Below, in pieces: positions 2,649 to 21,757 of a stretch of DNA of 22,210 nt (its first letter is position 1; every line of letters starts with the position of its first letter). Location of the stretch: positions 1 to 22,210 of the IMG/VR virus record IMGVR_UViG_3300009093_001223. One strand, 5' to 3'. The notes below the pieces were generated by a model. It saw only the letters and a program-made list of their open reading frames with translations, made no database searches and was not told the origin of the DNA. Source of the DNA: a virus. Position numbers and translations under genes: made by a program.

Positions 2649-2686
2649 CCAATGAACCAATCACTTATAACCAATAAACCAACCCC
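2649..2686 (+). promoter_or_regulatory. G-poor repetitive leader of the 2687 gene
   Basis: Imperfect CCAATNAA-like units begin at 2649, 2657, 2671 and 2679, the last one (CCAACCCC) ending at the ATG. No G occurs from 2655 to 2686. This is the weakest of six such leaders in the window. There is no Shine-Dalgarno sequence. Confidence 0.5.
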
Positions 2687-3133
2687 ATGCCAATAAGAAA
2701 TCAAATAGAAGCAGTCACGCAATTACTTACCGAGCAACCCAACTTTATTTACGGAACTGTAAACGAAATCAATCAGTTAGCCGACGACGCATCATTCCCC
2801 GTCGTGTTTATGTACCCGCTGCAACCTATTGACGTCTCGCCCCAGGTAAATGGATCGGTGGACAACACATTCTCAGTCTACCTGGAATTCCTGTACAAAA
2901 CCGAATTCGACCAATACACATCAGGCAATGAAGACTATGTAAACCAGGCACTCCGCATGGCTAATGAATTCATCGTCAAAGCATCCAAATACCGCGAAGG
3001 CGATAGCCGCTACTTCCGTATCAAAGCCGGCGATAAAGCCAAATGCCTGCCGGTTTACAACAAATTTGACAGCAATTCGACTGGCGTTAGTTTGACGATA
3101 ACTTTAGCGACAATGTATTTCGAATCATATTAA
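2687..3133 (+). CDS. Putative tail terminator / head-tail joining protein
   Basis: Protein of 148 residues, soluble, alternating helix and strand, with neither signal peptide nor membrane segment. The N-terminal helix (RNQIEAVTQLLTEQP) followed by beta-rich sequence and a central helix (DYVNQALRMANEFIVKA) is compatible with the tail-terminator/neck fold (lambda gpU-like), but I recognise no decisive motif. It directly precedes a gp10-like neck protein and a large structural protein, the usual place for head-tail connection proteins. It is separated from the chaperone by a cargo gene and a palindromic repeat. The role is inferred mainly from order and size. Confidence 0.45.
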   Translation: MPIRNQIEAVTQLLTEQPNFIYGTVNEINQLADDASFPVVFMYPLQPIDVSPQVNGSVDNTFSVYLEFLYKTEFDQYTSGNEDYVNQALRMANEFIVKASKYREGDSRYFRIKAGDKAKCLPVYNKFDSNSTGVSLTITLATMYFESY

Positions 3134-3169
3134 GATCATAGACGATTGTCGTGAGTCACAGCATTAAAC

Positions 3170-3208
3170 GACTTACGACTTTAGACTTAAGACTATTGAC
3201 TTTTCACT
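3170..3208 (+). promoter_or_regulatory. Leader of five 7-nt tandem units (GACTTNN)
   Basis: Units start at 3170, 3177, 3184, 3191 and 3198, each exactly 7 nt after the last: GACTTAC, GACTTTA, GACTTAA, GACTATT, GACTTTT. They are followed by CACT and then the ATG of the 3209 gene, so the start codon falls inside the sixth period. Confidence 0.8.
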
Positions 3209-3643
3209 ATGCCCAACAATCACCTAACAACCTTTCTCGAATCCCTCAAAACCGACATTATCCACTCACTGCAATCAAACGGAAAATATGCTACCGGGCA
3301 AACTGCACAACAAATCAACATCGACACCGATAACCTGCAATTGCAACTACCCGCCTACATACAGATATTGGAATCAGGCCGCGGACCAACCGGTAAAAAT
3401 GCAATACCCGGCAGTCTCCCAATGATTGACCGCATCAAAGAATGGTGCCAGGCCAAAGGGATACCCGAAAAAGCAGCGTGGGCCATCAAAAAGTCGATCG
3501 ACAAAAACGGATTTAAAGGCACACCAAGCATAATCTCCGGGCCGCTATGTGACGCCAACATTGATCTAAGACTCGGCCAGGCAATAGACCCAATGTCCGA
3601 TGAAATAGCACAGCAAATAATTGATTCCATCGGATTGAGTTAA
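3209..3643 (+). CDS. HK97 gp10-like neck / minor tail completion protein
   Basis: Protein of 144 residues. The layout fits the gp10-like proteins that join the head to the tail tube: an N-terminal helix (LTTFLESLKTDIIHSL), a strand pair, the segment YIQILESGRGPTGK, then a Pro- and Gly-containing region leading to two helices (IDRIKEWCQAKGIP and AAWAIKKSIDKNGF). The phrase E-x-GRGPT followed by a helix and 'KG' is what I associate with Bacteroidota prophage versions. The start follows a repetitive leader, with no competing upstream Met in frame. Moderately sure of the family, less sure of the exact place in the virion. Confidence 0.6.
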   Translation: MPNNHLTTFLESLKTDIIHSLQSNGKYATGQTAQQINIDTDNLQLQLPAYIQILESGRGPTGKNAIPGSLPMIDRIKEWCQAKGIPEKAAWAIKKSIDKNGFKGTPSIISGPLCDANIDLRLGQAIDPMSDEIAQQIIDSIGLS

Positions 3644-3648
3644 AAAAT

Positions 3649-3687
3649 CATTCACTCAATCACTAATCCACTCATTCACTCATTAAA
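3649..3687 (+). promoter_or_regulatory. G-free leader of 8-nt units (NNNNCACT)
   Basis: CACT recurs at 3653, 3661, 3669 and 3677 with an exact 8-nt period, alternating with CATT, CAAT, AATC and CATT, then CATTAAA and the ATG at 3688. There is no G between 3640 and the start codon. This should be an unstructured leader, as suits initiation without a Shine-Dalgarno sequence. Confidence 0.8.
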
Positions 3688-5757
3688 ATGTCCCTCTTCC
3701 CCCAAATCCAGATCACCAACCAGGTAAGTGCTACTGACCAGGGCATCACCTACACTAATGGCGAAGTTTATATCATTATAACTGATGAAAATAACAACCC
3801 GGCAAACGGTAATAACCTGGCTGTTACTGTCGCCTTTTACGACACTGGAAATACCAATAATCACGACTTTATAGTCCCCGGGCAAAGTTTATTGATCTAC
3901 ACTGGCGTCCTGAACCGGAAGCGTGTATCAGATGGCGCCATAATCGATATTCGCAATTTCACAGTAGTCGATTTTACTGAAGGTACACCCAGTCCGCCAC
4001 TGGTATGCGATGCGGCCATCAACGCCATCGTAACCGACAAAAAAGAATCTGCTCCCGGCGCGGCAGACGGGCAAATTACCATCAATGCATCATCCAGCTA
4101 CGGCCCTATCCAGTATAGCGTGGATTCTGTTAATTACCAATCCTCCCCTACTTTCACTGGTCTGGCCGGGGGCTTTTATGTCGCTTACATCCGAGACGCG
4201 AATAATTGTACTGCCATTAAACAATTCACTTTGCTCACGGTGCGTAATCTATTAGTTGGTGATCCATCGGTCGACCTCGGCAATGGCAATATCTCACGAT
4301 GGAATGCAGCATTTAATCCCGTAGTATTCACTTATCAGCGTAAGGATTTCGAGGTAACCAGCATTACAAAAGATAGCCAAACGCAAAAGGCACAACTCAA
4401 TATCAATGCAATGGTGATCGACACCAGGCAAAACGAAATGATCTACGTAAATGCCGGCGCTTATAATGGCATTTATAAGGTTTACCAGGCACAATACAAT
4501 GCTCTGATTATCGATACTCCTTATATTTCCTCGTCAACTATCGGAGGTTACGTCAATGTCAATAGTCTGCGGCCTTATTACAAAATGCTCACGCAGATCA
4601 CTTACCTGGATAAACTCACTGGTCAGCAACAAACTATCCAGGCCACCAACCGCCCCAACAGCAAAGGCATCATCCGCGCCGATTTTTCTAATTTTCTGCA
4701 AAGCTTGTTGCGTGCCAAAGACAACAGCACTTTTACCCAATCAAACTTCCGCGACGATAACCTGAGCGCGAGCTATCAAATTCAATATGCTGAAAGCTGG
4801 GACGATGGTACACCCGAAGGCCATACTTCATCCTATATTCCAATTGATGATCCCTATTATGTAGTTTATGCCGCCAAACAACTGGGCAGTAAATATGGCG
4901 GCAACCTGGCTGCCTATGTGCCGTTTGCATCTGTAATTGATAATTCTTCACTGGCAAAATGGGTTACCGATTTTGCTGAACCGGCCTACTCTAACGGTTA
5001 TCCTTTTGATATCGGTTTTATTTACAGCGAACATTTGCTTGGGCTCAATATTTATTGTGAGCTCACTTTGCTTGATATCAACCGCAATCCACTACCCGGC
5101 GATGCACAAGCTAATTTCCTGTTGAACGAAGATGGTTCGTGGCTTTTGAACCAGGACAGTAGTAAATTGATTATTTCAGGACAAACTATTTCAACCACCC
5201 CCCTTCCGGCGCAATTAGGTTTAAACCGGTTATTGATCAACAGCACTTTTCCGGATGATGCGTATTACATAACGCTTACATTAAAGTATGACGATGAAAA
5301 CGGCACGGCCCACGCAATAACTCAAACCCAAACCATCCGCATTGATGATGCAATCGACGAGCGCTCTGTCTACTTGCGTTGGATTGGATTAAGCGGCAGC
5401 TGGGAATACTACCGCTTTGTTTATAACCAGGAGGTTTCTCTCGATGTGCAAAACGCCACTATCATCAAAAACTTCGTATCCGATTGGGAAAACCAGGCCG
5501 GCATTGAAGAAGTAATCTCCAAAGATGCCGGACAAAAAATGAAGGTGATGGCAGAGGATCTGTCCGTTAACGACATTAAAGGGTTGCAATCCATCAAGTA
5601 CTCGCCAAAAGTGCAGATGCTGGTGAACAAAAATCCGGTTAAATGGCAAACCATCGTCATCAACACCGCCACTTATAGCGAATATGAAACCATGAACGGC
5701 CAGGCGCCTTTCAGTATCACATTCAATATGCCTTCCATCAATATACAAACGCAATAA
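3688..5757 (+). CDS. Large phage structural protein with SprB-like repeat
   Basis: Protein of 689 residues, beta-rich, no signal peptide. Residues about 1-105 form a beta domain. Residues about 107-182 resemble one SprB-type repeat known from Bacteroidota surface adhesins: AAINAIVTDKKESAPGAADG, then YSVDSVNYQSSPTFTGL, then YIRDANNC. The rest is rich in Tyr, Asn and Asp and looks like tail or baseplate material. Its place after the neck protein and its size suggest a tail-tip, fibre or decoration protein carried on the virion. I do not recognise a named family. The leader is a tandem-repeat type shared with other phage genes here. Confidence 0.55.
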   Translation: MSLFPQIQITNQVSATDQGITYTNGEVYIIITDENNNPANGNNLAVTVAFYDTGNTNNHDFIVPGQSLLIYTGVLNRKRVSDGAIIDIRNFTVVDFTEGTPSPPLVCDAAINAIVTDKKESAPGAADGQITINASSSYGPIQYSVDSVNYQSSPTFTGLAGGFYVAYIRDANNCTAIKQFTLLTVRNLLVGDPSVDLGNGNISRWNAAFNPVVFTYQRKDFEVTSITKDSQTQKAQLNINAMVIDTRQNEMIYVNAGAYNGIYKVYQAQYNALIIDTPYISSSTIGGYVNVNSLRPYYKMLTQITYLDKLTGQQQTIQATNRPNSKGIIRADFSNFLQSLLRAKDNSTFTQSNFRDDNLSASYQIQYAESWDDGTPEGHTSSYIPIDDPYYVVYAAKQLGSKYGGNLAAYVPFASVIDNSSLAKWVTDFAEPAYSNGYPFDIGFIYSEHLLGLNIYCELTLLDINRNPLPGDAQANFLLNEDGSWLLNQDSSKLIISGQTISTTPLPAQLGLNRLLINSTFPDDAYYITLTLKYDDENGTAHAITQTQTIRIDDAIDERSVYLRWIGLSGSWEYYRFVYNQEVSLDVQNATIIKNFVSDWENQAGIEEVISKDAGQKMKVMAEDLSVNDIKGLQSIKYSPKVQMLVNKNPVKWQTIVINTATYSEYETMNGQAPFSITFNMPSINIQTQ

Positions 5758-5762
5758 AATAA

Positions 5763-5788
5763 AAATCCTCTCTGATTTGAAAGGATTT
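5763..5788. terminator. Weak hairpin between convergent genes
   Basis: AAATCCT (5763-5769) pairs with AGGATTT (5782-5788) across a 12-nt loop, 6 nt after the structural gene and 44 nt before the 3' end of the minus-strand lipoprotein gene. There is no clear U-tract, so this is only a candidate bidirectional terminator. Confidence 0.3.
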
Positions 5789-5831
5789 GGTAAACACTAA
5801 GGTTATCTATAACAAACAGCGATGCGACGAA

Positions 5832-6353
5832 CTATTGCTTAACGTAAGATATATCCGAAATGTAATTGTAAGGCGTATTTGGCGGCATGTTCCAACGGAA
5901 GTCTGCCTCCTGGGTGGTATAAGTATCTTCTGTTTCCATACTTGAAGCAGTTAATGACAGAATTGTTTCGGTATTGGAGTATTCTCCCTCCTGGTAGATT
6001 TTCATTTGATCCCCGGAAATTGAATAGGTTAAAAAAGAAGTGGTATCAGATTTAGTACCGGGTACTCCCTGCACTTGATAAGGGAGCGTTGTTACGAATG
6101 CGCTACCATCCTTATTATATATTTCATACCAGGCTAGAGTAAGACTGTTGCTCCCATAGGTATCAGTGGTATCCTTAGCTAACGTCCCGCCCATAGTATA
6201 TATTTTAATATGCTCCTTGGTGGACCTCCACTTGCCGATAATTAACGAAGAAAAATTTGTCTTGTCAGGGTTTTCTTTTCCTCCATTATCTTTCTTACAA
6301 GAATAGAAACAGAGTAATAATGCGATTGCAAATAGTGATAAAGATTTACACAT
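5832..6353 (-). CDS. Lipocalin-like lipoprotein
   Basis: Protein of 173 residues with a lipoprotein signal peptide: hydrophobic residues 5-17, then a Cys lipobox (CFYSCKKD). The acidic/Gly-rich linker after the Cys is common in Bacteroidota outer-membrane lipoproteins. After it, LIIGKWRSTKEH resembles the opening of lipocalin-like domains, followed by beta strands with ISGDQMKIY. Probably anchored in the outer membrane or facing the periplasm; ligand unknown. It is antisense to and between two phage structural genes, with a leader ending AAACCTT just before the ATG, like other cargo genes here. It may be a lysogenic-conversion gene, but nothing in the sequence proves that. Confidence 0.7.
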   Translation of the reverse strand: MCKSLSLFAIALLLCFYSCKKDNGGKENPDKTNFSSLIIGKWRSTKEHIKIYTMGGTLAKDTTDTYGSNSLTLAWYEIYNKDGSAFVTTLPYQVQGVPGTKSDTTSFLTYSISGDQMKIYQEGEYSNTETILSLTASSMETEDTYTTQEADFRWNMPPNTPYNYISDISYVKQ

Positions 6354-6420
6354 AAGGTTTAGATTTTATATCGGCTGTAAAGCTAAAAAATTAAGCAATT
6401 ATTTAAAGACTAAAATTTAA

Positions 6421-8529
6421 ATGAATCAACTCCAATTATATATTAATGACGAGCTGGTCGATCTGAATGACGACAGTCCCATCGCACTCACTTTCCAGAT
6501 CAACAACCTCGCCGAGGTACAAAACCAGCAGGGCAACACCAGCAACCAATTCAAGCTTCCGCTTACACAGCGTAACCGGCAAATTTTGGGCTTCCCGGAC
6601 GATATTGCCTTCACTACCAACGCACCTTACACGCAATACCCGGCGCGGTTGCTACAGGACGGTCTCGAAATAATTCCGTACGGGATAGCCGAACTCACTA
6701 ACATTGAGCAGGATAATGCCAACATCACCGTATTATCAGGTAATGTCGACTTTTTTGATGCGATTGATGGCAAGTTATATGACATGGGCGACAGTACCAG
6801 TCAGTGGACTAAGTACGGACAAAACCCGGTTTGGAAGCCCTATGATCACACCTGGAACCTGCAGAATGCAGCTACCTCGCAAACCAAAACTGAAGGTTGG
6901 ATATATCCGGTTATTGACTATGGATATATTAACGGGCAGGATTTTACACCGCCGATTGACGTCCATAATCTCCGGCCCGGTTTTTTCATCAAGTCAGCAA
7001 TTGACCTGCTGTTACAATCTGCCGGCTATAAAGGCAAAGGCTCATTACTAGCCGATCCGCTATACCCTTTATTGATCTGTCAGTTCAGCAACGGCTCATG
7101 GGAACACGGTACCGATTATCAGAACCAGCCAGATGTTAGGGGGTTAACTGCAAGCAGTCAAACTACTGTCTCTCTGTTACATCCCGATTCACATAAAGGT
7201 ACTGATGGTGTTTTTGCGTGGAATAGTATTCTGTCCGATCCATCCAAACAATTTTCCGGCACGCTGTTCACCTCGCATAATACCAACACAGTTAAAGTTA
7301 CCGTGACCTTCCCGCATGTTCAATTATATGGACGGATCACCCCTGCCGACAACCCAAGCAGTTTAGAAGCGTTCATTTATTATCGCGATCCGGGCTTTCC
7401 GGCAGTAAGCGATACGCCGCTTACAAGTGTCAGCTTCGCTTTTAACGGCGGCGAACAAAGTCCCGGTAATCCCAACGGTTGGGTGCGCGATCACGGTACC
7501 AGTGGCGGTAGTATCACCGGTTATCAGCATTTATATAATACTATTATTTCCTGTGAAACTACCTTACCTGCCAATGGCGGAATATTTATTGCATACTCGT
7601 TTAAGGGCCTTCCAGTTTCAGGCGCCATTATTTATCCCGGGGCAGAGTTGGTAATTGAAAGTCAGAATACCACTGTTCAATTTAGTCAAACTGTTCAGTG
7701 CGAGCGTATCTTCCCGGATATCAGCCAGAAAGATCTGTTGAAAGATACTTTACAACGATTTGGCATTATTTGCCAAACAGATAATGCCACGCGGACAGTA
7801 AGCTTCAATTCCTTGCGTGACATTGTAAACAATATACCTGCTGCAAAAGATTGGACCGGCAAATGCATAAACCAGGGCAAACAAATCTCATTCAAATTGG
7901 GCAGCTATGCGCAGGTAAACTACATGAAATACAAAGAGGACGACAATGTGTTACCTAAAGGATTTGCCAACGCACAAATCAATATCAATGACACGACGCT
8001 GCCGGCAACGGCCGACCTTTTCGAGAGCCAGTTTGCCCCTACGCTAAATCGCCCGTTTTTGACAGGGCAAATTGCTCAAATAAAAATGATCGATAATACT
8101 TCAGACAGCATGGATTTCACAATCGATGTAACACCGCGCATCCTGGTTGATCAAAAGACTACCCTTCCGCCTGGAAAAACCGTTACGTTCACCGATGGCA
8201 GTACGAGTATTGAGGTAAATGACAAAATATCGACCCCCTATTTCTACAAACCTGAAGGCGATTACAATCTTTGCTTCTGCGATATGCCCGGAACTGCCAA
8301 TAACACTTTACCAGGGCTAAAAACTAAATACTATGCCGAACTCCAAAAAGTACTAACTCAAACAAAAAAGGTAGTCCACTATTTCCTGCTGACGCCACGC
8401 GATATTTTGGAACTGGATCTGTTGATACCAGTCTACCTGCAACAGGACAACGCCTATTATTACATTAATAAAATAGACAGTTGGCGAAAAGGACAACCAT
8501 GCAAAGTAGAGTTGGTTAAATTGGGCTAG
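6421..8529 (+). CDS. Large phage tail / baseplate structural protein
   Basis: Protein of 702 residues without signal peptide or membrane segments, mostly beta. The N-terminus (LQLYINDELVDLND, then LPLTQRNRQILGF) resembles a group of large structural proteins I associate with Bacteroidota prophages, close to the tail-tip region. The C-terminus keeps a compact domain ending in WRKGQPCKVELVKLG. It probably belongs to the distal tail or baseplate. It lies between a cargo lipoprotein and a cargo exported protein, and unlike several phage genes here it has an ordinary AT-rich leader with no tandem repeat. Specific function not recognised. Confidence 0.55.
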   Translation: MNQLQLYINDELVDLNDDSPIALTFQINNLAEVQNQQGNTSNQFKLPLTQRNRQILGFPDDIAFTTNAPYTQYPARLLQDGLEIIPYGIAELTNIEQDNANITVLSGNVDFFDAIDGKLYDMGDSTSQWTKYGQNPVWKPYDHTWNLQNAATSQTKTEGWIYPVIDYGYINGQDFTPPIDVHNLRPGFFIKSAIDLLLQSAGYKGKGSLLADPLYPLLICQFSNGSWEHGTDYQNQPDVRGLTASSQTTVSLLHPDSHKGTDGVFAWNSILSDPSKQFSGTLFTSHNTNTVKVTVTFPHVQLYGRITPADNPSSLEAFIYYRDPGFPAVSDTPLTSVSFAFNGGEQSPGNPNGWVRDHGTSGGSITGYQHLYNTIISCETTLPANGGIFIAYSFKGLPVSGAIIYPGAELVIESQNTTVQFSQTVQCERIFPDISQKDLLKDTLQRFGIICQTDNATRTVSFNSLRDIVNNIPAAKDWTGKCINQGKQISFKLGSYAQVNYMKYKEDDNVLPKGFANAQININDTTLPATADLFESQFAPTLNRPFLTGQIAQIKMIDNTSDSMDFTIDVTPRILVDQKTTLPPGKTVTFTDGSTSIEVNDKISTPYFYKPEGDYNLCFCDMPGTANNTLPGLKTKYYAELQKVLTQTKKVVHYFLLTPRDILELDLLIPVYLQQDNAYYYINKIDSWRKGQPCKVELVKLG

Positions 8530-8539: not shown

Positions 8540-8570
8540 TTGTAAAATCCATTAGTGTTATTTATATTTG
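8540..8570 (+). promoter_or_regulatory. Bacteroidota-type promoter of the 8600 gene
   Basis: TTG at 8540-8542 and TATATTTG at 8563-8570 match the TTG / TAnnTTTG consensus with a 20-nt gap, about 30 nt before the ATG. This supports independent transcription of the cargo gene. Confidence 0.65.
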
Positions 8571-8599
8571 CTAACATACTTAGCAAACCTTATTGTAAA

Positions 8600-9163
8600 A
8601 TGAAAAAGATCTTCTTCCTTCTTATATTTCTTGTACCATGCCTGGCATTTGCTCAAAAGAAATCAATTGATGGTTTTATGGATATTCCATTTGGAAGTGA
8701 TACGGCGACTGTTAAAGCTATGGTGCTTGCTAAGGGTGGTAAACAAGTAGATTCACTCTGTACAAAAAACGAACTGACGTTTTCAAATTTTTCTTTAAAT
8801 CAAAGACCAGTTTTTCGCCTTATTGTAGACTTCGTAGGAAATAAAGTATATCAAGCAATATACTCATTTGAGTATAGCGACAACGACATACTAGATGAAT
8901 ACGATGGCCTGGCTCATGACATCACAGCAGTTTACGGTAAGCCTTTTAAAACAGAAAACTATCCAGAATTCAGAAGTCTTGCTGCCAAGATCAGGAAAAT
9001 AAGATCAAATGATATCATAGTCAGGACTACATGGGTGGCAAAAAATAAAAACGCTATGGGAGTACTGGTCGAACCGGTAGGCCAATCATTAATGTTAATA
9101 CTTTTCTATTCAGATACTGCTCTTAACAAAACGGTAGACGACAAAAGGCAATCCGATCTCTAA
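8600..9163 (+). CDS. Small exported protein of unknown function
   Basis: Protein of 187 residues from the ATG at 8600. It begins with a textbook signal peptide (MKKIFFLLIFLVPCLAFAQ, cleavage after AFA). The frame is open 45 nt further upstream, but an earlier start would put the signal peptide inside the protein and would begin upstream of the promoter box. The mature part starts with DGFMDIPFGSDTATVKAMV, a 'FG-s' plus helix pattern common in small periplasmic Bacteroidota proteins. Function unknown. It has its own promoter and a leader AAACCTTATTGTAAA almost the same as that of the minus-strand gene at 2426, so it is probably a cargo gene inside the tail module. Confidence 0.75.
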   Translation: MKKIFFLLIFLVPCLAFAQKKSIDGFMDIPFGSDTATVKAMVLAKGGKQVDSLCTKNELTFSNFSLNQRPVFRLIVDFVGNKVYQAIYSFEYSDNDILDEYDGLAHDITAVYGKPFKTENYPEFRSLAAKIRKIRSNDIIVRTTWVAKNKNAMGVLVEPVGQSLMLILFYSDTALNKTVDDKRQSDL

Positions 9164-9251: not shown

Positions 9252-10361
9252 ATGACAGACGATATTAAGAAAACGATTACGATTGACGTTAAGGTAAACA
9301 GCAATATAGAAGAGCAATTGCAAGGCGCCAGGATCATGAACGAGCAAATTGCAAAAGGTACGAAGATTACGCTCAACGATATATCCGGTACTACTCAAAA
9401 AACAGGTAATGGAATATTTGATTTCTTTAGCACCGGATTTAAAAAGGCGTTCAGCAATGTGATCGGATTTTATAAAAAAGCTGCAACTGATGGAAGCAAA
9501 GCGGCAATGGCAGCTACCAGTGACGCTAATAAGAAAATTGAAAATGATACAAAGGCCTCACAAGACAAGATCAGGTCGAGCATAATTGACAGTACGCAAA
9601 AAACTGCCGACACTGTTTTTTCAATCATGACCAAAAGCAATGATTCTAAGCGTGATTATGAAGTAGCAAAAGATGAAAAAGCAAGGAAAGCAGAATTAGC
9701 AGCTGATGGCGACAACAAAGCTGCTATCGCGGCAACAAACAAAAAATACGACAAGCTGGAAAACGATGCAAAAAACAAAGCCTTTAAAGCTGATCAAAAC
9801 GCTGCTCGGGCTCAGGCAATAATTAACGGTGCAATAGCCATTACCAAAGCTGAAGCCACATTAGGGCCGATAGCCGGAACAATAGCTATAGGCGCCATTG
9901 TTGCACAAACAGCTGCGCAATTGGCAATTATAAGTAAGCAACAACCACCGGCACTTGCAAAAGGAGGCTATTTCCAATCAGACGGTAAAGGTGCTGTACT
10001 ATCGGGTTATAGCCGGGCAGATGATACCAATGCTTTTCTCCGTTCTGGCGAAGCGGTGGTCGTGTCCGAGGCCATGCGCGATCCATGGGCACGCAATCTT
10101 GTAAGCGCTATCAATGTGGCTTATGGCGGTCGTGATTTTTCGGTGCCTAATCTGTCAAGAGGATATGCAGTAGGCGGCATATTTACCGACGGAGGAAACG
10201 CCAACCGTTATTACAACCAGCCTGTAAACGATCAGCAAAATCTGGCCAATACAGTGGCTTACCAGATGATCAATAACTTCCCTCCTGTTTATGTCGATGT
10301 AAAAGATGTTAATAATCAGCAAAATATCCTGGCGCAAACTATTAATCGGGTGAATCTTTAA
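9252..10361 (+). CDS. Short tape-measure-like tail protein
   Basis: Protein of 369 residues. Residues about 80-185 are Ala/Lys/Asp-rich and coiled-coil-like. Residues about 187-228 are a hydrophobic Ala/Ile/Gly stretch (GTIAIGAIVAQTAAQLAIIS). This is followed by PPALAKGGYF, then AVLSGYSRADDTNAFLRSGE and AVVVSEAMRD. The Gly-rich C-terminal pattern of 'AKGGY...D...LRSGEAVV' is typical of the C-terminal part of tape measure proteins, which set tail length. Such proteins usually have many hundreds to over a thousand residues, so this one is either a naturally short-tail version or has lost its middle. It lies about 7 kb from the chaperone gene, unlike the usual adjacency. Confidence 0.6.
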   Translation: MTDDIKKTITIDVKVNSNIEEQLQGARIMNEQIAKGTKITLNDISGTTQKTGNGIFDFFSTGFKKAFSNVIGFYKKAATDGSKAAMAATSDANKKIENDTKASQDKIRSSIIDSTQKTADTVFSIMTKSNDSKRDYEVAKDEKARKAELAADGDNKAAIAATNKKYDKLENDAKNKAFKADQNAARAQAIINGAIAITKAEATLGPIAGTIAIGAIVAQTAAQLAIISKQQPPALAKGGYFQSDGKGAVLSGYSRADDTNAFLRSGEAVVVSEAMRDPWARNLVSAINVAYGGRDFSVPNLSRGYAVGGIFTDGGNANRYYNQPVNDQQNLANTVAYQMINNFPPVYVDVKDVNNQQNILAQTINRVNL

Positions 10362-10365
10362 GATG

Positions 10366-10400
10366 AAAGGTGAAAGCTAAAAGGCGAAAGCTGAAAGCAG
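10366..10400. repeat. Five 7-nt tandem units AAAGNNR
   Basis: Exact 7-nt period: AAAGGTG, AAAGCTA, AAAGGCG, AAAGCTG, AAAGCAG, starting 4 nt after the tape-measure stop codon. The alternation of the first four also gives a 14-nt higher-order period. Confidence 0.9.
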
Positions 10401-10423
10401 ACTACCTGCTATATCACCATAAA

Positions 10424-10469
10424 CCCTTACAACCTTTACAACTTCTACAACCATTACAACTAACAACAA
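10424..10469 (+). promoter_or_regulatory. G-free leader of four 9-nt units (NNNYTACAA) before the 10470 gene
   Basis: CCCTTACAA, CCTTTACAA, CTTCTACAA, CCATTACAA run from 10424 to 10459 with an exact 9-nt period. A degenerate 10-nt unit CTAACAACAA then ends at the ATG. No G occurs from 10409 to the start codon. Confidence 0.85.
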
Positions 10470-10703
10470 ATGAACATCAAACTAGCCAACACCTTATTCG
10501 ACGACGGCATATTTTCAGAACTCTACAAAGCTGGATTTATCACCGCCAAAGTTTTCACCTATCGCGAAATTTACCTGTGGGTATTAGCGCAAATGCATAC
10601 ACGCGGCATCACCAAAAATCAGGCAGTACTTGAAGCCGGTGGAAAATTCAACAGGGATGAGCGCACTATCTGGCGGGCGATGAATAGTTTTGAAGAAAAT
10701 TAA
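10470..10703 (+). CDS. Small phage HTH-like protein
   Basis: Protein of 77 residues, helical, with no membrane segment. Residues about 46-72 (GITKNQAVLEAGGKF, then RDERTIWRAM) look like a helix-turn-helix: a helix, a turn at Gly-Gly, and a recognition-like helix with Arg and Trp. It lies at the end of the tail module and carries the tandem-repeat leader type seen on other phage genes, which ties it to the phage. It may be a small DNA-binding regulator, but no family was recognised and the motif is short. Confidence 0.6.
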   Translation: MNIKLANTLFDDGIFSELYKAGFITAKVFTYREIYLWVLAQMHTRGITKNQAVLEAGGKFNRDERTIWRAMNSFEEN

Positions 10704-10740: not shown

Positions 10741-10763
10741 CATGATAAATCATATTTATCATG
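10741..10763. promoter_or_regulatory. 23-nt perfect palindrome containing the lepB start codon
   Basis: CATGATAAAT (10741-10750), CAT, then ATTTATCATG (10754-10763). The last three bases of the right arm are the lepB ATG. As DNA it could bind a dimeric regulator; as RNA it would form a 10-bp AU-rich hairpin hiding the start codon. Confidence 0.6.
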
Positions 10764-11855
10764 ACTTGGAAATGGCCGTTCCGGAAAAAAACTGATACGC
10801 AAAAACCTAAAAAAAGTAAGCTGCGCGAGTGGATGGATGCTTTGTTATTCGCGTTTGTTGCAGCAACTATTATTCGCGGGTTATTGTTCTCGGCATACGC
10901 CATTCCCTCTGGCTCTATGGAAGGAACAGAACTGGTTGGCGATTATCTTTTTGTAAGCAAGATCAGTTACGGTCCACGTATAGCTAATACCCCCCTTTCC
11001 ATTCCGTTTACCGAGCCGAAGGTTTATGGTATAAAAACTTATCTTGATTGGATTAAACTACCCTATTGGCGTCTGCCGGGATTATCAGAAGTAAAAAAAG
11101 GTGATATCGTGGTATTTAACAAGCCCGAAGAAGCTGACCCAAAATATAATTTACCGGTGGATGAACGCACAGCCCTGATTAAACGCTGCCAGGCAACACC
11201 AGGTGATGTGCTGACCATAGTTGACGGACAAGTGTACATTAATCGCAAAGCCGCTCCGAATGCACCTGATTCTCAAACAGATTACAGAATAGTTACCGAT
11301 GGCTCCAATATCAATCCGCAGTTTTATACCGACCTGGGGATAAAACCGTCTGAAACTGACGGTACCGCAGTGACAGTTCCTTATAAAAATCTTTCAGCTT
11401 TGAAGAGCCAGTCATACATTAAAAGTGTTACGCCTGTAGTCCAACCAGCGGGGACATATGCGGATGATGTATTTCCACATAACCCGAATTTCAAATGGAA
11501 CCAGGATAATTTCGGGCCATTAGTGCTACCTAAACGAGGCTACACCATTCCGCTAAACGATTCAACTATGGCATTATACCGCCGCGCCATAGAATTATAT
11601 GAGCATAACAAGGTAGAAACGCAAGGCAAAGATATCCTGCTTAATGGACAAAAAGCTACCAGCTATACTTTTAAAATGGATTATTACTGGATGATGGGCG
11701 ACAACCGTCACAACTCGCTTGACTGTCGTTTTTGGGGTTATGTGCCCGAAGATCATATTGTCGGCAAGGCGATGATCACCTTTTTCAGTACCGATTCTAC
11801 GCAAAGTTTCTTCAGTAAGATCCGCTGGAACAGGGTATTTAAGCCGATAAATTAA
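10761..11855 (+). CDS. lepB: Signal peptidase I
   Basis: Inner-membrane serine protease that removes signal peptides from exported proteins on the periplasmic side. Protein of 364 residues with a basic cytoplasmic N-terminus and one membrane helix at about 27-45. The nucleophile is Ser52 in IPSGSMEGT and the general base is Lys141 in ALIKRCQATPGD. Residues 313-326 form the conserved GDNRHNSLDCRFWG box, followed by VPEDHIVGKA. The middle insertion (about 165-300) is typical of larger Bacteroidota versions. No usual housekeeping neighbours are visible and it follows phage genes, so it may be host flanking DNA or a second copy. It converges with the next gene, 7 nt apart. Confidence 0.95.
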   Translation: MTWKWPFRKKTDTQKPKKSKLREWMDALLFAFVAATIIRGLLFSAYAIPSGSMEGTELVGDYLFVSKISYGPRIANTPLSIPFTEPKVYGIKTYLDWIKLPYWRLPGLSEVKKGDIVVFNKPEEADPKYNLPVDERTALIKRCQATPGDVLTIVDGQVYINRKAAPNAPDSQTDYRIVTDGSNINPQFYTDLGIKPSETDGTAVTVPYKNLSALKSQSYIKSVTPVVQPAGTYADDVFPHNPNFKWNQDNFGPLVLPKRGYTIPLNDSTMALYRRAIELYEHNKVETQGKDILLNGQKATSYTFKMDYYWMMGDNRHNSLDCRFWGYVPEDHIVGKAMITFFSTDSTQSFFSKIRWNRVFKPIN

Positions 11856-16184: not shown

Positions 16185-16230
16185 AAACTCTGTCACCACA
16201 TACCTAAACTATTAATCCGACCTTTGAAAT
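16184..16230. repeat. Intergenic repeat, copy 4 (5' truncated)
   Basis: Retains TGTCACCAC from 16191 and GACCTTTG ending at 16226; TTTG again starts 28 nt after TGTCA. The left TGACA arm is missing, replaced by the end of the palindromic element. An ATG starts 5 nt after TTTG. Confidence 0.65.
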
Positions 16231-16308
16231 ATGCCAATCAGCATAATAATCATTGTTTACCTCACAGCAATACTGATCTATTACTGGAGGGAATCCGAAC
16301 TTGAATAA
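16231..16308 (+). CDS. Possible 25-residue membrane micropeptide
   Basis: Short ORF: Met-Pro-Ile-Ser, then an almost unbroken run of Ile, Val, Leu, Tyr and Ala about 16 residues long, then a charged tail YYWRESELE. This is the pattern of a one-helix membrane peptide. The ATG is only 5 nt after the TTTG box, so the message would be practically leaderless. A similar TTTGAAATATG context at 12743-12753 opens a 15-codon hydrophobic ORF. Chance ORFs of this size are common, so confidence is low. Confidence 0.3.
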   Translation: MPISIIIIVYLTAILIYYWRESELE

Positions 16309-16322
16309 TTGCAACCTGCCTG

Positions 16323-16841
16323 TTAAAAAAGATCGTCAAAATTTAAAAGCAGAAAGGCCGAAATAAGATATGTTAAAACCAGGATCGCGTCTGTATCTGA
16401 AGTTTTCAGGTCATTTGGCAGATCGTGCTCAAATCGTGAAACAGGGACTCTAAATTCGCGTTTTTGAGTTTTAAGACTAAAATATCTGAAGGCCTGGAAG
16501 ACGAGAAGAAGTACAATCGTATTTAATAATATAGAATAATGCTTCGCACTTTCCATTTCAAATTGGCGATGCCCAACAATAAGAAAATACATGAGAGCAT
16601 GTAAAATTGCGAAGCCGAACCAAATTAAATAGAATGTAAAATTTCTTAATAACTTATATAAGAACATAAAAGATCCGATCTGGGAAATAACAACATGCGT
16701 GGACACTACAATGGTTACTGCCTCATCGCTGCCGCGTTGGTAAATAAAAAAAGCATAAATGGAAAAAATGAGATAGATCGTAATAATAATTACATCCCAC
16801 AACTTGAGCTTATCAAAATAAATGAATGGTTTGTCCTCCAC
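16323..16841 (-). CDS. Five-helix membrane protein, paralog B
   Basis: Protein of 172 residues, paralogous to the product of 15490-16011 along its whole length: KPFIYFDKL, FGFAILHALMYFL, FRYFSLKTQKREFRVP. The start is GTG at 16841; it aligns exactly with the ATG of the paralog and both leaders share CCGTATC, so the GTG is well supported. About five membrane helices; function unknown. The duplication includes the upstream minus-strand -7 box and the TGACA repeat. The two C-termini diverge, suggesting the duplication is not recent. Confidence 0.75.
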   Translation of the reverse strand: MEDKPFIYFDKLKLWDVIIITIYLIFSIYAFFIYQRGSDEAVTIVVSTHVVISQIGSFMFLYKLLRNFTFYLIWFGFAILHALMYFLIVGHRQFEMESAKHYSILLNTIVLLLVFQAFRYFSLKTQKREFRVPVSRFEHDLPNDLKTSDTDAILVLTYLISAFLLLNFDDLF

Positions 16842-16864
16842 GTTGAAATGTGATACGGCTTATC

Positions 16865-16872
16865 CAAATGTA
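16865..16872 (-). promoter_or_regulatory. -7 box TACATTTG for the 16841 gene
   Basis: Exact TAnnTTTG on the minus strand, about 23 nt before the GTG start and beside repeat copy 5. Confidence 0.5.
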
Positions 16873-16876
16873 TTAA

Positions 16877-16936
16877 ATCACTGACAAAATACCGTCACCG
16901 TCCCACTAAATCTTTCTCCCGATCTTTGGATATATC
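16877..16936. repeat. Intergenic repeat, copy 5
   Basis: TGACAAAATACCGTCA (16882-16897, right arm with one mismatch) and GATCTTTG ending at 16928; the TTTG starts 28 nt after the palindrome. It lies in the divergent gap between the paralog B gene (minus) and the protease gene (plus) and could serve the protease as promoter. Confidence 0.8.
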
Positions 16937-16966
16937 ACCAGGCAGTAATCAACAGGCCTTCTTCCG

Positions 16967-17002
16967 GACCTCCGACTTCCAGACTCAACTCTCACATCTA
17001 AA
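16967..17002 (+). promoter_or_regulatory. Leader of 7-nt-type units before the protease gene
   Basis: GACCTCC, GACTTCCA, GACTCAA, CTCTCAC, ATCTAAA start at 16967, 16974, 16982, 16989 and 16996, and the ATG at 17003 starts the next period. One unit has 8 nt. C-rich and poor in G. Confidence 0.65.
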
Positions 17003-17530
17003 ATGTACAAAATCTACCTATACGACACCGAAACCGACAACATCGGTTCAGGCACTTTATCATCAGGCTACATTCAGGCCGAGCTGCAAAATGCAGCCGG
17101 ACAGGATGTAGAAATACACATCAGCTCGGTTGGCGGCAGTGCTTTTGATGCCATCGCGATCTACGATCTGCTAAAGAAATACCCCGGCAAAATAACTACC
17201 TATATAGATGCACTGGCCGCCTCTGCTGCTTCCATAGTGGCTATGGGCGGCCAGACGGTGGCGATGAGCAAATATGCCCTGCTCATGATACATAAACCGA
17301 TGGTTGGCTCGGGCGGCAATGCTGACGAACTGTTGAAAGATGTGCAGATGCTGAATGTAGTTCAATCACGCCTGGCGCAGATATACATGGATAAAACCGG
17401 CTTGGATGGGATCACGATAAACAGTTTGATCAACAGGTGGCAACATTATTTCAAGTATAGGGAATGGTATATTTTTGATAGGTTCAGGAGTAACACTAAC
17501 CATCGGCTCTCCAGGCGGCGCAGGTTCTAA
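17003..17530 (+). pseudogene. ClpP-like prohead protease, C-terminally truncated
   Basis: Family S14/S49-like head maturation protease that cleaves capsid and scaffold proteins during phage head assembly. Residues 1-143 are ClpP-like: ISSVGGSAFDAIAIYDLL, the serine nucleophile Ser74 in ALAASAASIVAMGG, and His97 in LLMIHKPMVG. Similarity ends after KTGLDGITINSLIN. The remaining 32 residues (NRWQHYFKY...RRRRF) are the out-of-frame reading of the next gene. The catalytic Asp and the rest of the fold, expected beyond this point, are missing, so it should be inactive. It has the tandem-repeat leader seen on other phage genes. The expected capsid gene does not follow. Confidence 0.85.
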
Positions 17531-18464
17531 CGTTGGAGGATGGTTGAACATGGGTACAGTGAATGGAGTAGACGGGACAAGCACCCTGAATATAGATGGA
17601 TCTTATGGATATGGCAATACAAATCTCGTGATGGCTGCGGGATTATTGAACCTCAACCACAGTGGCAATTCTAAAATAGTCATTAATACAGGAGTAAATA
17701 TGAATTTGCCTCAAACGTCATTTTACGACTTAGAGGTAAATGGAAGCGCTACGACTATAGGTAATACTACTGTTATTCATACTTTGGTTGTATCAGGTGC
17801 ATTAGAGTTATCGACTTATGACTTCACAGTATCAAATACCACTACCTACGGAGGAAATATTAGTAAATCAGGTAATGGCACCGTTAATTTTGCTACACTA
17901 GCTGTGTCCAACTCATCGGGTAAGATCAATTTTACAGGGTCTCCAACAGTAAATCTTTCAGGTAATTGGTCAGGTGATATTCGTACAGGCGTAAACTTTG
18001 GTTCTAATCCTGTTAACATAACTCAATCAATAAGTTTTGCATTGAATGGAACTGCTAACATCTCTCCACTAATCCCTGTAAGCTTTATAATAGCATCGGG
18101 CAAAACTTTAACCAATACCGGAATTAGCTCTACGTTCGGTGGATTATCAATTAGTGGAACTATTACTGGGGCTGATGCTACAGCTATATTCGATAATCGT
18201 AGTGTATTCACTTATCAAAACGCTATTGCGCCGATGGCCACGGGTAAGCTCTATTGTAATCAGGCAACTAATACAGTCATTTATGGCCTTGCAAATAACC
18301 AAGATATAACAGTGCCTTCGGACACTACGCCGGGTTACCAAAACTTAACATTGCAGGGTTCAGGAGCAAAACGATTATTAGGCAGTGTGTCAGTTAAAGG
18401 GACGTACACCCTCACTTCTCCTGCAACATTAAATGCTAACGGGTTTGCATTGACGAACCCTTAA
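17430..18464 (+). pseudogene. Beta-solenoid fibre/adhesin fragment lacking its N-terminus
   Basis: Open from a stop at 17427-17429 to TAA at 18462-18464, about 344 residues of Gly/Ser/Thr/Asn-rich beta-repeat sequence. Protein-like reading begins right at the junction (STGGNIISSIGNGIF), before any start codon. The first candidates are TTG 17475 and ATG 17550. Repeating phrases such as GNISKSGNGTVNFATLAVSN and LTLQGSGAKRLLGSVSVKG indicate a parallel beta-solenoid as in phage fibres or surface adhesins. It ends with NANGFALTNP, possibly the natural C-terminus. Without an N-terminus it has neither a virion-binding domain nor a signal peptide. Its 3' end overlaps the next, convergent gene by 29 nt. 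Confidence 0.65.
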
Positions 18465-19475
18465 CCGATAGCCGAGACCGTCTTTGATATATAAAATTTT
18501 TGGACATCCGGATGGAGGGCTTTTCAATGAGCAGGTAAAACAGCCACGCGAATAAGATGGCTACCAATAACTCTATACCAAAGCATACAAGTTGATACTG
18601 AACGATCGCTAAGCGTTTGAATATCCCATTACATAATTCCCAAACGAAACTATGTGTGAGGTATAACGAATAAGATATGTTACCCAAAAAATAAAACGGT
18701 TTTACTTGGTTACTTATAAGCATTACTGCCAAACAACTCAATAGTAATACTATCGCTGTTGTAACACCAAGACAATAGGCGGAAAGGCAAATAAACAAAA
18801 CTGGTAAAATTGCATTAAGTCGGGTTCTATTATTACAAAACATCATGAATGAGATGCCTAAAGCAAACACGGATGAGTAGTTAAATATCAGATTGTCGTT
18901 GCTGAAATGGATTAAGTTAAGCGCTCCAAATGCTAAAAGGAATACCGTCTTGTAAATTTTATTGTTTGATAAAAAGTATAACAAACCAATAAGTATATAG
19001 AACTGAAACTCTACGCAAAGTGTCCAAAAAATGTGATTATAAAACTGGTACCGAGTAAACGGGACAGCATAAAACAGATGAGCGATTAACTGGCCGAGAT
19101 CGAACTTAAAAAACACTCCACGGTAAGATGGCAGATGATTTAAAAAAAATACCCGAGCACTATGTAAAGTGAAATCACAGCCCAGTAAGGCGGGTCGATA
19201 CGAATAGACCTTTTAACGAGGAACGTAAGGAATTGATTGGTCCTATATCCACTTTGTTCAAGGGAATACACAATAATAAACCCACTTATGAAAAAGAAAA
19301 CAGGTACGCCGATTTGGCCTAAGTTAAAAGCAGATGACAACGTAGGATAGTCAGTCAATGCAAAACCAAAGTGGCAAAAAACGACACCCAGTGCTGCTAA
19401 GCCACGTAGGTATTGAATACTTAATATTTTATTGGCTTTGTCCAAACTAGGGCTGAATATAACAAGAAAAAGCAA
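18436..19475 (-). pseudogene. Membrane acyltransferase (type 3 family) split by a frameshift
   Basis: Integral membrane O-acyltransferase that would acetylate surface sugars. The first part (19475-19140) has ILSIQYLRGLAALGVVFCHFG with the conserved His. The second part (to 18436) has IFWTLCVEFQFYILIG, the usual FWTL-x-VE-x-FY box, and many membrane helices. The frame breaks in a run of eight T on the coding strand. One more T would read YFFLNHLPSYRGVFFKF and give about 346 residues, normal for the family. No Met starts the first part; TTG at 19475 follows a stop directly. It may be a pseudogene, a phase-variable gene or a sequencing error. Next to a fibre-like gene it could be a serotype-conversion gene. 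Confidence 0.75.
19142..19149. repeat. Homopolymer A8 (T8 on the coding strand) at the acyltransferase frameshift
   Basis: TAAAAAAAAT on the plus strand, at the exact point where the reading frame changes. A length of nine would restore the open frame. Confidence 0.8.
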
Positions 19476-19506
19476 TTATCATTAAAAACTTAAATTTCCA
19501 TCCCCC

Positions 19507-19788
19507 ATGCAAAAACTCTCCCTATGGCAGCGCATCCTCAGCGATACGCCTGCATTTTTCAAAAAAGTACAAATATTTGGCGTTGGCCTGGCCGGTCTTG
19601 GCGGTACATTGGCCGCTATTCACGGCATTCCTTCAAGCCTTACTGCTTCTTTAATTTCCGCAGGATCGGCAGTAGCCGCTATTGCACAATTCGCCGTAAA
19701 AATGGATGAAACCAATACAGCCGATCCTTGTTCTAAGGCAAGCGATAAACCATCGCCGTCAGAAGCTGTCCAATCATCAGCAAATTGA
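19507..19788 (+). CDS. Small two-helix phage membrane protein, holin candidate
   Basis: Protein of 93 residues. A short amphipathic N-terminus is followed by two hydrophobic stretches at about 22-40 (VQIFGVGLAGLGGTLAAIHG) and 43-63 (SLTASLISAGSAVAAIAQFA), with a hydrophilic, Ser/Pro/Asp-rich tail. Size, helix pair and position in front of the lysozyme gene fit a holin, which would open the inner membrane to release the endolysin. Similar small Gly/Ala helical proteins occur in Bacteroidota prophages, but no specific family is recognised. It may simply be a structural membrane protein. Confidence 0.55.
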   Translation: MQKLSLWQRILSDTPAFFKKVQIFGVGLAGLGGTLAAIHGIPSSLTASLISAGSAVAAIAQFAVKMDETNTADPCSKASDKPSPSEAVQSSAN

Positions 19789-19824
19789 TAATTTTTAATT
19801 AATTTACCCCTTTAATCTAACAAA

Positions 19825-20793
19825 ATGAAGAAGCTGTTAATCATCGTATTACTCCTCCTTACTACAAGTGCATTTGCGCAAAGAAAATTTAAGCCAAGCA
19901 CACCCATCGTTATATCCGGGCGGAACAATGTCACCATAAGCGGTTATTTAATAACCGGTGGCCTGTCCAACTGTATCTACCTGCGCGATTGCTCAAACGT
20001 GCATATCACCAAATGCAAACTCAAAGATTCAAAAAAAGTAGGTATACTGCTCGAAAACTGTAAGAATGTATTGATCGACAGTTGCTATATCGCTAATGTA
20101 CAAACCGGTGTAAATGCCAAAAGCTCGGTAACCGTTAAAGTTAACCACAACTACTTCCGCAATATGAATGGCCCCTTCCCTGCAGGGTGTGCTGTTCAAT
20201 TTAATAATGTGAGCGCCCCCGCCAGCCAGATCAATTATAACCGGGTCGAAAACATCGCCGGCGAAGCTGAACACCCGCAAGACTTGCTGAGTGTATATAA
20301 ATCCAACGGTTTGCCCGGCGATTCGATACAAGTTATCGGTAACTGGATCCGCGGCGGACAGATAATCAAAGATTCCGGCGGCGCTGCAGGCATTGTCCTT
20401 GGCGACGTTGGCGGCACCTACCAGGTGGCCCGTTATAACGTGGTTATTAATGGGGGCTTTGTAGGCATGCAGGTCCAGGGCGGAAGTCACATCAAAATGG
20501 ACCACAACACCATATACAGTTCATCAACGCCATACTCAAACGATGGCCTGTCCTACGGAAACTACTCCGGTCAGCCTAGTGATAATGTGGAGATCAGCTA
20601 TAACAAAATAAAGTTCTTCAATAAGAATGGTAAAGAGGCAGATAGCTGGTGGGACCCTCAAACTGTGTCGAAACCCAAAGGCTGGGAAACCAATATCCAG
20701 GGGGCAGATATAGATGATAAAATCCTGCCCGACAAACTGCACGACGACGATGACGACGATCATGACCGCGGCCGCAACGACAAAAAGCATTAA
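19825..20793 (+). CDS. Exported right-handed beta-helix protein with acidic tail
   Basis: Protein of 322 residues. The signal peptide is MKKLLIIVLLLLTTSAFAQ. The body consists of parallel beta-helix coils: NVTISGYLITGG, NVHITKCKLKDSKKVGILLE, NVLIDSCYIANVQTGVNA, VARYNVVINGGFVGMQVQ and others, of the NosD/pectate-lyase type. Such proteins often bind or cleave polysaccharides. The C-terminus ends in a poly-Asp run and basic residues (LHDDDDDDHDRGRNDKKH). It is exported, unlike virion proteins, so it may be a surface or periplasmic factor carried by the prophage, for example acting on capsule sugars. No catalytic residues could be assigned. Confidence 0.7.
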   Translation: MKKLLIIVLLLLTTSAFAQRKFKPSTPIVISGRNNVTISGYLITGGLSNCIYLRDCSNVHITKCKLKDSKKVGILLENCKNVLIDSCYIANVQTGVNAKSSVTVKVNHNYFRNMNGPFPAGCAVQFNNVSAPASQINYNRVENIAGEAEHPQDLLSVYKSNGLPGDSIQVIGNWIRGGQIIKDSGGAAGIVLGDVGGTYQVARYNVVINGGFVGMQVQGGSHIKMDHNTIYSSSTPYSNDGLSYGNYSGQPSDNVEISYNKIKFFNKNGKEADSWWDPQTVSKPKGWETNIQGADIDDKILPDKLHDDDDDDHDRGRNDKKH

Positions 20794-20847
20794 ACAACCC
20801 TTCTGACGCTATCACTCAAAATTCTTTCATCCTGACGGTGAAGGCCA

Positions 20848-20890
20848 TATGCTCTATTTTTCCTTAGAGCATAACCAGGCTTCCTTTTTT
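20848..20890 (+). terminator. Hairpin followed by T6
   Basis: TATGCTCTA (20848-20856) pairs with TAGAGCATA (20865-20873), 9 bp perfect. A run of six T lies at 20885-20890, some 11 nt after the stem, further than in a standard terminator. It lies between the beta-helix and lysozyme genes. Confidence 0.45.
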
Positions 20891-20899
20891 AAAACCAAA

Positions 20900-20921
20900 G
20901 CCCGGCTTTTGACAGCCGGGC
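20900..20921. terminator. GC-rich hairpin GCCCGGC / GCCGGGC
   Basis: Perfect 7-bp stem with an 8-nt loop, 18 nt before the lysozyme ATG. Read on the minus strand it is followed by CTTTGGTTTT and could terminate there. On the plus strand it lies in the lysozyme leader and may affect its translation. Confidence 0.45.
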
Positions 20922-20939
20922 ATTAAATCCTATTCTCTT

Positions 20940-21416
20940 ATGAAACTAAGCTCACAAGGCGAAAAGCTTATCAAAAGCTTTGAAGGCCTGCGCCTTACAG
21001 CCTATCGCGATGTAGCTGGGGTTTGGACCATCGGCTATGGCTCGACCCGCTACCATGACGGCAGATCTGTTAAACCGGGCGATAAACTAACAAGTGCGGT
21101 TCAAGCCTCCGCAATTTTTGTAAATACCCTTGGTCAGTATGAAGACGCCGTCAACAGCTATGTAAATGTCCCGGTTACTCAGAATCAATTTGATGCGCTG
21201 GTGTCTTTCACTTATAACGAAGGCACCTATGCACTGAAAGAATCAACCCTGCTAAAAAAACTCAACGCAAAAGATTACGCAGGCGCTGCCGATCAGTTCT
21301 TAATATGGAACAAGATCACCGATCCGAAAACAGGCCAAAAAGTAGAATGCGATACGCTAACCGGCCGCCGCAAAGCCGAATGCCGTTTATTCCTTTCAAC
21401 CCAACAAACATCATGA
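20940..21416 (+). CDS. Phage endolysin, GH24 lysozyme
   Basis: Muramidase that cuts peptidoglycan during host lysis. Protein of 158 residues, full length for the T4/P21-type GH24 family. The catalytic triad has the classic spacing E-x8-D-x5-T: Glu15 in IKSFEGLRL, Asp24 in AYRDVAG, Thr30 in VWTIGYGS. Further conserved parts are VPVTQNQFDALVSFTYNEG and the C-terminal GRRKAECRLF. There is no signal peptide or membrane anchor, so release needs a holin. Its stop overlaps the next start (ATGA). Confidence 0.95.
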   Translation: MKLSSQGEKLIKSFEGLRLTAYRDVAGVWTIGYGSTRYHDGRSVKPGDKLTSAVQASAIFVNTLGQYEDAVNSYVNVPVTQNQFDALVSFTYNEGTYALKESTLLKKLNAKDYAGAADQFLIWNKITDPKTGQKVECDTLTGRRKAECRLFLSTQQTS

Positions 21417-21658
21417 CAACCATCGAACACAGAGAGCTCAAGGGCATCACCATCAAAAATCTGTTGGTCACCATCTTCAGCACAGCCAGCATTGTTGCTT
21501 CTGTTATGACCTCATACCTGCAATTAAAGAGCGACATCCACGACATTAAACTCAGCCAGGAAACACAAAACCGGGTATATGATATCAGACTGAAGATGCT
21601 CGAGACCCAGGTTACCGTGCTACAGCACGAGGTAGACGAGATCAAATCCAAAGATTAG
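21413..21658 (+). CDS. Phage TM/coiled-coil protein, lysis accessory candidate
   Basis: Protein of 81 residues starting at the ATG that overlaps the lysozyme stop. One membrane helix lies at about 16-37 (LLVTIFSTASIVASVMTSYL), then a hydrophilic coiled coil to the end (heptad-like, MLETQVTVLQHEVDEIKSKD). A longer reading from 21305 would overlap the lysozyme deeply and is not credible. Translational coupling to the endolysin suggests a holin, antiholin or inner-membrane spanin; the single helix plus periplasmic coiled coil is closest to a spanin-like layout. No matching outer-membrane partner was found here. Confidence 0.65.
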   Translation: MTTIEHRELKGITIKNLLVTIFSTASIVASVMTSYLQLKSDIHDIKLSQETQNRVYDIRLKMLETQVTVLQHEVDEIKSKD

Positions 21659-21698
21659 GTTATTTATTGATTGGTTGTGCTTAATTAACCACCTAACC

Positions 21699-21757
21699 AA
21701 TTCACTATTCACCACTCACCAATTCACTCAATCACTAATTCACTAATTAATAAAAAA
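21699..21757 (+). promoter_or_regulatory. G-free leader of 8-nt units (NNNNCACT)
   Basis: AATTCACT (21721), CAATCACT (21729) and AATTCACT (21737) follow with an exact 8-nt period, then AATTAATA and A-rich sequence to the ATG at 21758. Earlier related units begin at 21699. No G occurs from 21680 to the start codon, 78 nt. It is very like the leader of the 3688 gene 18 kb away. Confidence 0.8.

Follow-up and report, generated by a model that had tools for sequence, protein, structure and literature searches.

Direct repeats of the heptamer TAACTGA have been described in Beggiatoaceae, in Cyanobacteria, and in five Bacteroidetes (MacGregor 2015, PMC4679880). These are short tandem heptamers that mostly lie within several nucleotides upstream of start codons, have little Shine-Dalgarno (SD) character, and differ between close strains by 7-nt length steps, all traits shared by the arrays described below, and a posttranscriptional role was proposed for them (PMC4679880). 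Degenerate heptamers can also pair with one another. In the P6b stem of the Nostoc tRNA-Leu intron they form a hairpin, and their copy number is strain variable, again as here (PMC3488679). In Geobacter metallireducens, dispersed multicopy sites consist of four or five tandem heptamers, for which strand-switching loops have been drawn in at least one class (PMC2700814). Furthermore, Bacteroidota, as studied in Flavobacterium johnsoniae, initiate translation without SD sequences, on mRNA that is little structured around the start codon (PMC6847099). Our literature search found no paper on such repeats in Mucilaginibacter, and nothing fitting was among the top matches for Pedobacter and Sphingobacteriaceae.

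In this work, we analyzed a 22,210-bp IMG/VR record (the window, by which we mean the whole stretch of DNA). A sequence-only reading of it had claimed that six phage genes have G-poor leaders built of degenerate tandem repeats that run up to the start codon. It had further proposed that these repeats form a phage-specific initiation or regulatory device able to change length by slippage. We compared the window and 102 related loci, together called the cluster sample, with co-directional host leaders in a 1.2-Mb sample of three Mucilaginibacter genomes.

Results

Each 60-nt window leader tested was compared separately with 1,000 dinucleotide-preserving shuffles. Tandem arrays were confirmed in four of the six leaders, each also found by TRF and all on the plus strand. 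Upstream of the gene at 3209, the leader contains an array of period 7/14 with units GACTTAA and GACTTTA (3170 to 3202; P = 0.001), and that of the gene at 3688 contains an array of period 8 with units TCATTCAC and TCACTAAT (3648 to 3684; P = 0.001). The array before the gene at 10470 has period 9 and units AACCTTTAC and TACAACYWT (10422 to 10460; P = 0.001), and the one before the gene at 21758 has period 8 and the unit AATTCACT (21699 to 21748; P = 0.002). The weak period-8 repeat claimed before the gene at 2687 (leader at 2649 to 2686, plus strand) and the period-7 repeat claimed before the gene at 17003 (leader at 16963 to 17002, plus strand) were at chance level (P = 0.54 and P = 0.58). 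Among the homologous leaders in relatives, 23 of 73 and 20 of 55, respectively, were tandem. The claimed G poverty held for the leaders of 2687, 3688, 10470, and 21758 (0 to 7% G) and failed for those of 3209 (15%) and 17003 (12%). None of the remaining window leaders tested, those of cargo genes among them, was significant in the shuffle test. The claim that the repeats occur at phage genes only was borne out within the window but did not extend to the host, where the same unit families lie in 8.3% of co-directional gaps.

Among the cargo genes, the one at 8600 has TATATTTG and a TTAGCAAACCTTATTGT leader (window 8564 to 8600), conserved in L002 to L004. This arrangement fits the known Bacteroidota promoter form, TAnnTTTG, and promoters of their own seem likely for some cargo genes.

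A further array of period 7 (AAGCTGA/AAAGGCG; 10360 to 10398, plus strand; TRF) lies directly past the stop codon of the gene at 9252 to 10361. It has the opposite orientation to the start-side arrays and was absent from the sequence-only list. Matched by eye, it runs in reverse to the TTTTGCC-like arrays found before the 10470 homologue in L015, L017, L045, and L046. The gap before 10470 seems to combine two families, one on the stop side and the other on the start side, and neither folding nor the inverted-repeat test gave a convincing stem there.

The stems predicted within the window were weak, and that before 3688 alone clearly passed the sequence-level test. Its 5' arm, GATTGAGT (3633 to 3640, plus strand), extends into the codon that terminates the 3209 gene and is predicted to pair over 8 bp with ACTCAATC (3654 to 3661) inside the array (fold z = -3.0; inverted-repeat P = 0.008). 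In the gap from 3133 to 3209, the arm GTCGTGAGTC (3148 to 3157, plus strand) may pair with GACTTACGAC (3170 to 3179), which is the start of the array. This would give a modest stem of 10 bp with a fold z of -2.4, and the sequence-level inverted-repeat test was not significant (P = 0.44). The candidate stem before 21758, with a possible 5' arm GATTGGTTGTG (21669 to 21679, plus strand) and the partner CACCTAACCAATT (21690 to 21702), was marginal (inverted-repeat P = 0.04; fold z = -0.6, not significant). Most window arrays lack a partner array.

The cluster to which these genes belong encodes a head maturation protease and both the small and the large subunit of a terminase, and it has tape-measure-like genes. 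The 3688 protein has homologues on 40 viral contigs and at 62 public-genome loci, the majority labeled Mucilaginibacter, and tblastn with this protein found no match in annotated phage records. When 150 Mucilaginibacter genomes were searched, 94 had the cluster, usually as a single copy. Upstream DNA was sufficient for comparison at 49 loci, and at 42 of these, two or more members of one common set of chromosomal gene families stand before the terminase gene; the neighbors in one examined locus include an S24 peptidase, an RRM protein, a histidine kinase, and an Omp85-domain protein. We infer that the cluster is a phage-derived locus resident at one chromosomal place and not a recent prophage. 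Its one-copy, fixed-place pattern (L041 to L102 and the window) is one that a domesticated element, for instance a gene transfer agent, would be expected to show.

The gene content of the cluster varies. In the window region 17003 to 20800, the ClpP-like head protease gene encodes 175 amino acids, compared with about 400 in relatives (L079, 19291 to 20496). The gene of about 402 amino acids that adjoins it in relatives is missing there in the window, which has unrelated genes up to the lysozyme gene. The right end of the window (genes of the 19507 to 22210 type) is held in common with L101. A signal peptidase I gene (Peptidase_S26) lies inside the cluster at window positions 10761 to 11855; its family is found in 19 compared loci, and genomes with this cluster family also have further copies elsewhere. 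An RRM RNA-binding protein gene (L076, 4297 to 4575) represents a family that occurs in 33 loci, in most of them immediately before the cluster, and its product is a purely hypothetical candidate for array binding.

With gene starts from a simple caller, some of them misplaced, leaders were tandem at P < 0.01 in 106 of 476 cluster genes (22%) and in 16 of 318 co-directional host genes (5%). The periods of the tandem cluster leaders fell nearly all within 7 to 9 nt (7 in 50, 8 in 41, and 9 in 10). A whole-gap test gave 75 of 270 tandem gaps in the cluster and 26 of 313 (8.3%) in co-directional host gaps (Fisher P = 7e-10), although P values across loci are too small because related loci with homologous gaps are not independent. 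Tandem gaps also made up 8 of 103 divergent (7.8%) and 4 of 70 convergent (5.7%) host gaps, 12 of 316 gaps in other Sphingobacteriaceae, and 4 of 136 in other Bacteroidota. Because unit families are common to cluster and host gaps, the arrays are enriched in the cluster without being exclusive to it.

These results bear directly on the proposal of a phage-specific initiation or length-switching device. Such a device would be in keeping with the three- to five-fold enrichment of arrays in the cluster, with their leader bias, and with their varying unit number (both below). However, the same unit families are present in host gaps, divergent and convergent ones included, and the cluster is a resident chromosomal locus and not a free phage. 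The shared families rule out a device found in phage only, and we give the phage-specific proposal very little credence.

Unit number does differ between strains, as the proposal had supposed. L013 and L036, with flanking proteins 99 to 100% identical, are exactly one 7-nt unit apart in the gap before the 3209 homologue, and the host gaps of L076 and L083 are 28 nt apart, or four units of 7. The median length difference between close relatives was 13 nt for array gaps versus 0.5 nt for other gaps. Slippage would be the simplest source of whole-unit steps.

Entire families are also replaced. In the gap past the head protease, L012, L015, and L046 have three different families between flanking proteins that are 95 to 99% identical, and the final approximately 18 nt before the ATG remain similar despite the swap. 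A like difference separates L014 and L051 from L045 in another gap. Among close relatives of the window, the period-8 array before the 3688 homologue has altered units in L002 and L003, and a 9-nt family stands in its place in L004, L005, and L041. The gap that separates the 3688 and 6421 homologues contains a stem of 12 bp or longer in 30 of 38 relatives, built from many unrelated unit families. At least eight unrelated families occur in this one orthologous gap, which has no fixed-consensus short palindrome. We sought compensatory changes within one family, and the alignable gap sets were too small and too quickly replaced.

In co-directional gaps of cluster and host alike, C-rich arrays are mostly on the start side and G-rich arrays mostly by the preceding stop. 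In the gaps inspected, the stop-side array was often the reverse complement of the start-side array. A significant inverted partner was present in 33 of 75 tandem cluster gaps (about 45%) versus 7 of 116 nontandem ones and in 17 of 38 tandem host gaps versus 16 of 319 nontandem ones; a second inverted-partner test, on leaders only, agreed. A gap that holds an array and its reverse complement, typically past the preceding stop, can therefore fold as a long hairpin. For stems in co-directional gaps that reached 14 bp, the 3' arm was tandem in 33 of 87 with a G-rich 5' arm and a C-rich 3' arm and in 0 of 37 with the opposite polarity. An inverted repeat is identical on both strands, so that stem polarity alone is uninformative on gene direction. 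In folding predictions against shuffled controls, long repeat-armed stems were among the strongest structures; the other strongest folds were ordinary terminators and a dispersed GTCATTGCGAGG palindrome. More than half of all arrays have no partner array. The sequence-only reading had related the leaders to a preference of Bacteroidota for unstructured, A/U-rich leaders. A plain reading of that kind does not predict that many arrays are one arm of a gap-spanning inverted repeat.

A role as intrinsic terminators was ruled out: in the three tabulated co-directional groups, 78 stems had a G-rich 5' arm and a C-rich 3' arm, and a T-rich tail followed just 2 of them. Some paired arrays of relatives are very long, with gaps of at least 200 nt (L041, L075, and L101). 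A remnant of the dispersed palindrome GTCATTGCGAGG...CAATGAC lies at window positions 2484 to 2625, and in the host sample, members of this palindrome family lie in 14 co-directional gaps and 5 convergent ones.

REP/BIME and MITE-type palindromes are dispersed intergenic inverted repeats, and in this they resemble the arrays here. Copies of one arm family, GATTTCGGATGTTCGATTTCGGA, are scattered through 14 of the 20 Mucilaginibacter genomes compared; the number per genome ranges from 0 to 41 (reversed control, 0), and the copies often form inverted pairs 60 to 200 bp apart. A diverged pair of its copies lies in the L167 gap before a gene that by eye resembles dnaJ, which indicates that ordinary host operons also have such repeats. 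This dispersal, up to 41 copies and often in inverted pairs, would suit REP/BIME- or MITE-type mobile palindromes carried by a Y1 (RAYT-like) transposase, with the leader array as one arm. So would the swapping of families at one site and the Y1 transposase-domain proteins present in 8 of 8 genomes tested. Yet the arrays have no one consensus and instead comprise many families with the same 7- to 9-nt layout. Furthermore, Y1 gene numbers do not track arm copies (G011 has six Y1 matches and 0 copies), 14-nt inverted repeats lay near few of the 16 inspected Y1 genes, and a search for a clean empty site with target duplication found none. We consider mobile palindromes an unlikely source of the arrays. 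The copy numbers likewise gave no support to the Y1 transposase as array carrier.

Next to the start codon, the arrays are distributed unevenly. The unpaired cluster arrays included 28 G-poor arrays in the start half versus 2 G-rich arrays in the stop half. G-poor cluster arrays ended within 15 nt of the ATG in 46 of 55 cases (paired, 19 of 22; unpaired, 27 of 33), which upholds the claim that G-poor repeats run up to the start codon. In the last 30 nt before the ATG, C exceeded G in 224 cluster cases and G exceeded C in 35, compared with 203 and 79 in the host. Because cluster leaders are all G-poor, with or without an array, the G poverty of the arrays may merely follow that of the leader. 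The start-side bias of unpaired arrays would not be expected from leftover arms alone, which keeps a leader role in consideration. Leftover inverted-repeat arms, given the 28-to-2 distribution, are insufficient as a full account of the cluster.

In some relatives, L005 and L041 before the 3688 homologue among them, leaders have almost no G over about 100 nt. Several unit families, as in the leaders of L015, L017, and L089, contain ATGA or TAATG (ATGAACTA and CAATGAC), and other families contain neither. These motifs are overlapping start and stop codons and would create tiny leader reading frames.

The strongest of the rival explanations is neutral. Slippage and copying would let functionless tandem duplications build up in weakly constrained, G-poor spacers; inverted partners would arise via template switching or the spread of dispersed repeats, and the cluster would tolerate what host operons purge. 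Whole-unit length changes, fast family turnover, and the similar rates in co-directional, divergent, and convergent host gaps all agree with this account, as does the decayed appearance of some clusters, with a shortened head protease gene in the window. It accounts less well for a stem that persists before the 6421 homologue in 30 of 38 relatives despite replaced sequence and for the strong leader bias of unpaired cluster arrays. We regard neutral accumulation as a real possibility, although not the one to which we incline.

Discussion

We think it close to an even chance that the leader repeats are part of an exchangeable pool of 7- to 9-nt intergenic arrays of Mucilaginibacter chromosomes, commonest in the cluster, and this is the reading that we prefer. 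The arrays are polar: in most cases it is the G-poor strand that leads into the neighboring gene. Their units would grow and shrink by slippage, and families would move between gaps via recombination or copying. The cluster may retain arrays on the leader side because long, G-poor, SD-free leaders are acceptable to Bacteroidota ribosomes. Where a partner array is present, the predicted hairpin would close the stop-start spacer and would have to be opened, for example, by an upstream ribosome. This opening would couple or insulate the two flanking genes.

The exchangeable-array and hairpin reading is favored by the enrichment in the cluster, the 7- to 9-nt periods, the partner arrays, the stem polarity, the stem kept across families, the family swaps, the whole-unit length changes, the dispersed arm family, the leader bias, and the SD-free initiation of Bacteroidota. 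It is weakened in that more than half of the arrays are unpaired, the window stems are weak, and the folding is predicted. It is further weakened by the arrays in convergent host gaps (4 of 70), where there is no start codon. A more specific claim is that the cluster uses exchangeable repeat-armed hairpins, their shape conserved and their sequence replaced, to tune gene coupling without SD use. We find that claim doubtful. The same joint claim, and with it the same doubt, covers the notion that repeat number and arm family would set the coupling strength.

Should the paired arrays function in mRNA, they would reveal how operons without SD use control re-initiation between genes, and a single gap with its numerous natural replacements of sequence would supply ready-made test cases. 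If they do not, the arrays would be a clear example of fast family turnover in intergenic repeats. Should they have no function, they would also be a caution that repeat leaders in Bacteroidota prophages are not to be taken as phage-specific signals.

Compared with known systems, the arrays combine familiar traits in a different setting. TAACTGA repeats have one exact unit, whereas the arrays here form many degenerate 7-, 8-, and 9-nt families (PMC4679880). The accessible part of that account describes no reverse-complement partner array, and the TAACTGA repeats are not tied to a phage-derived cluster (PMC4679880). The unit TAACTGA itself is absent from the window arrays (GACTTAA, TCATTCAC, AACCTTTAC, and AATTCACT), and the main families of the relatives differ from it too. 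The G. metallireducens heptamers, unlike those here, form few fixed-consensus families that were proposed as regulator binding sites (PMC2700814). In F. johnsoniae, non-SD initiation is favored by an A-rich, little-structured upstream sequence, as here (PMC6847099); that work concerns single base positions and low structure, whereas repeats are the feature here (PMC6847099). Unlike REP/BIME and MITE palindromes, the arrays have no single consensus or conserved end, and their arms are themselves tandem arrays. The Nostoc P6b repeats lie inside one group I intron, and the arrays here lie between protein-coding genes (PMC3488679). The P6b-type trait of two complementary degenerate heptamer sets in one hairpin was nevertheless found, weakly in the window itself. 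As in contingency repeats, copy number differs between close strains (L013 and L036; L076 and L083). Taken together, these analogies indicate that there are precedents for heptamer arrays before starts, for base-paired degenerate heptamers, and for heptamer stem-loops.
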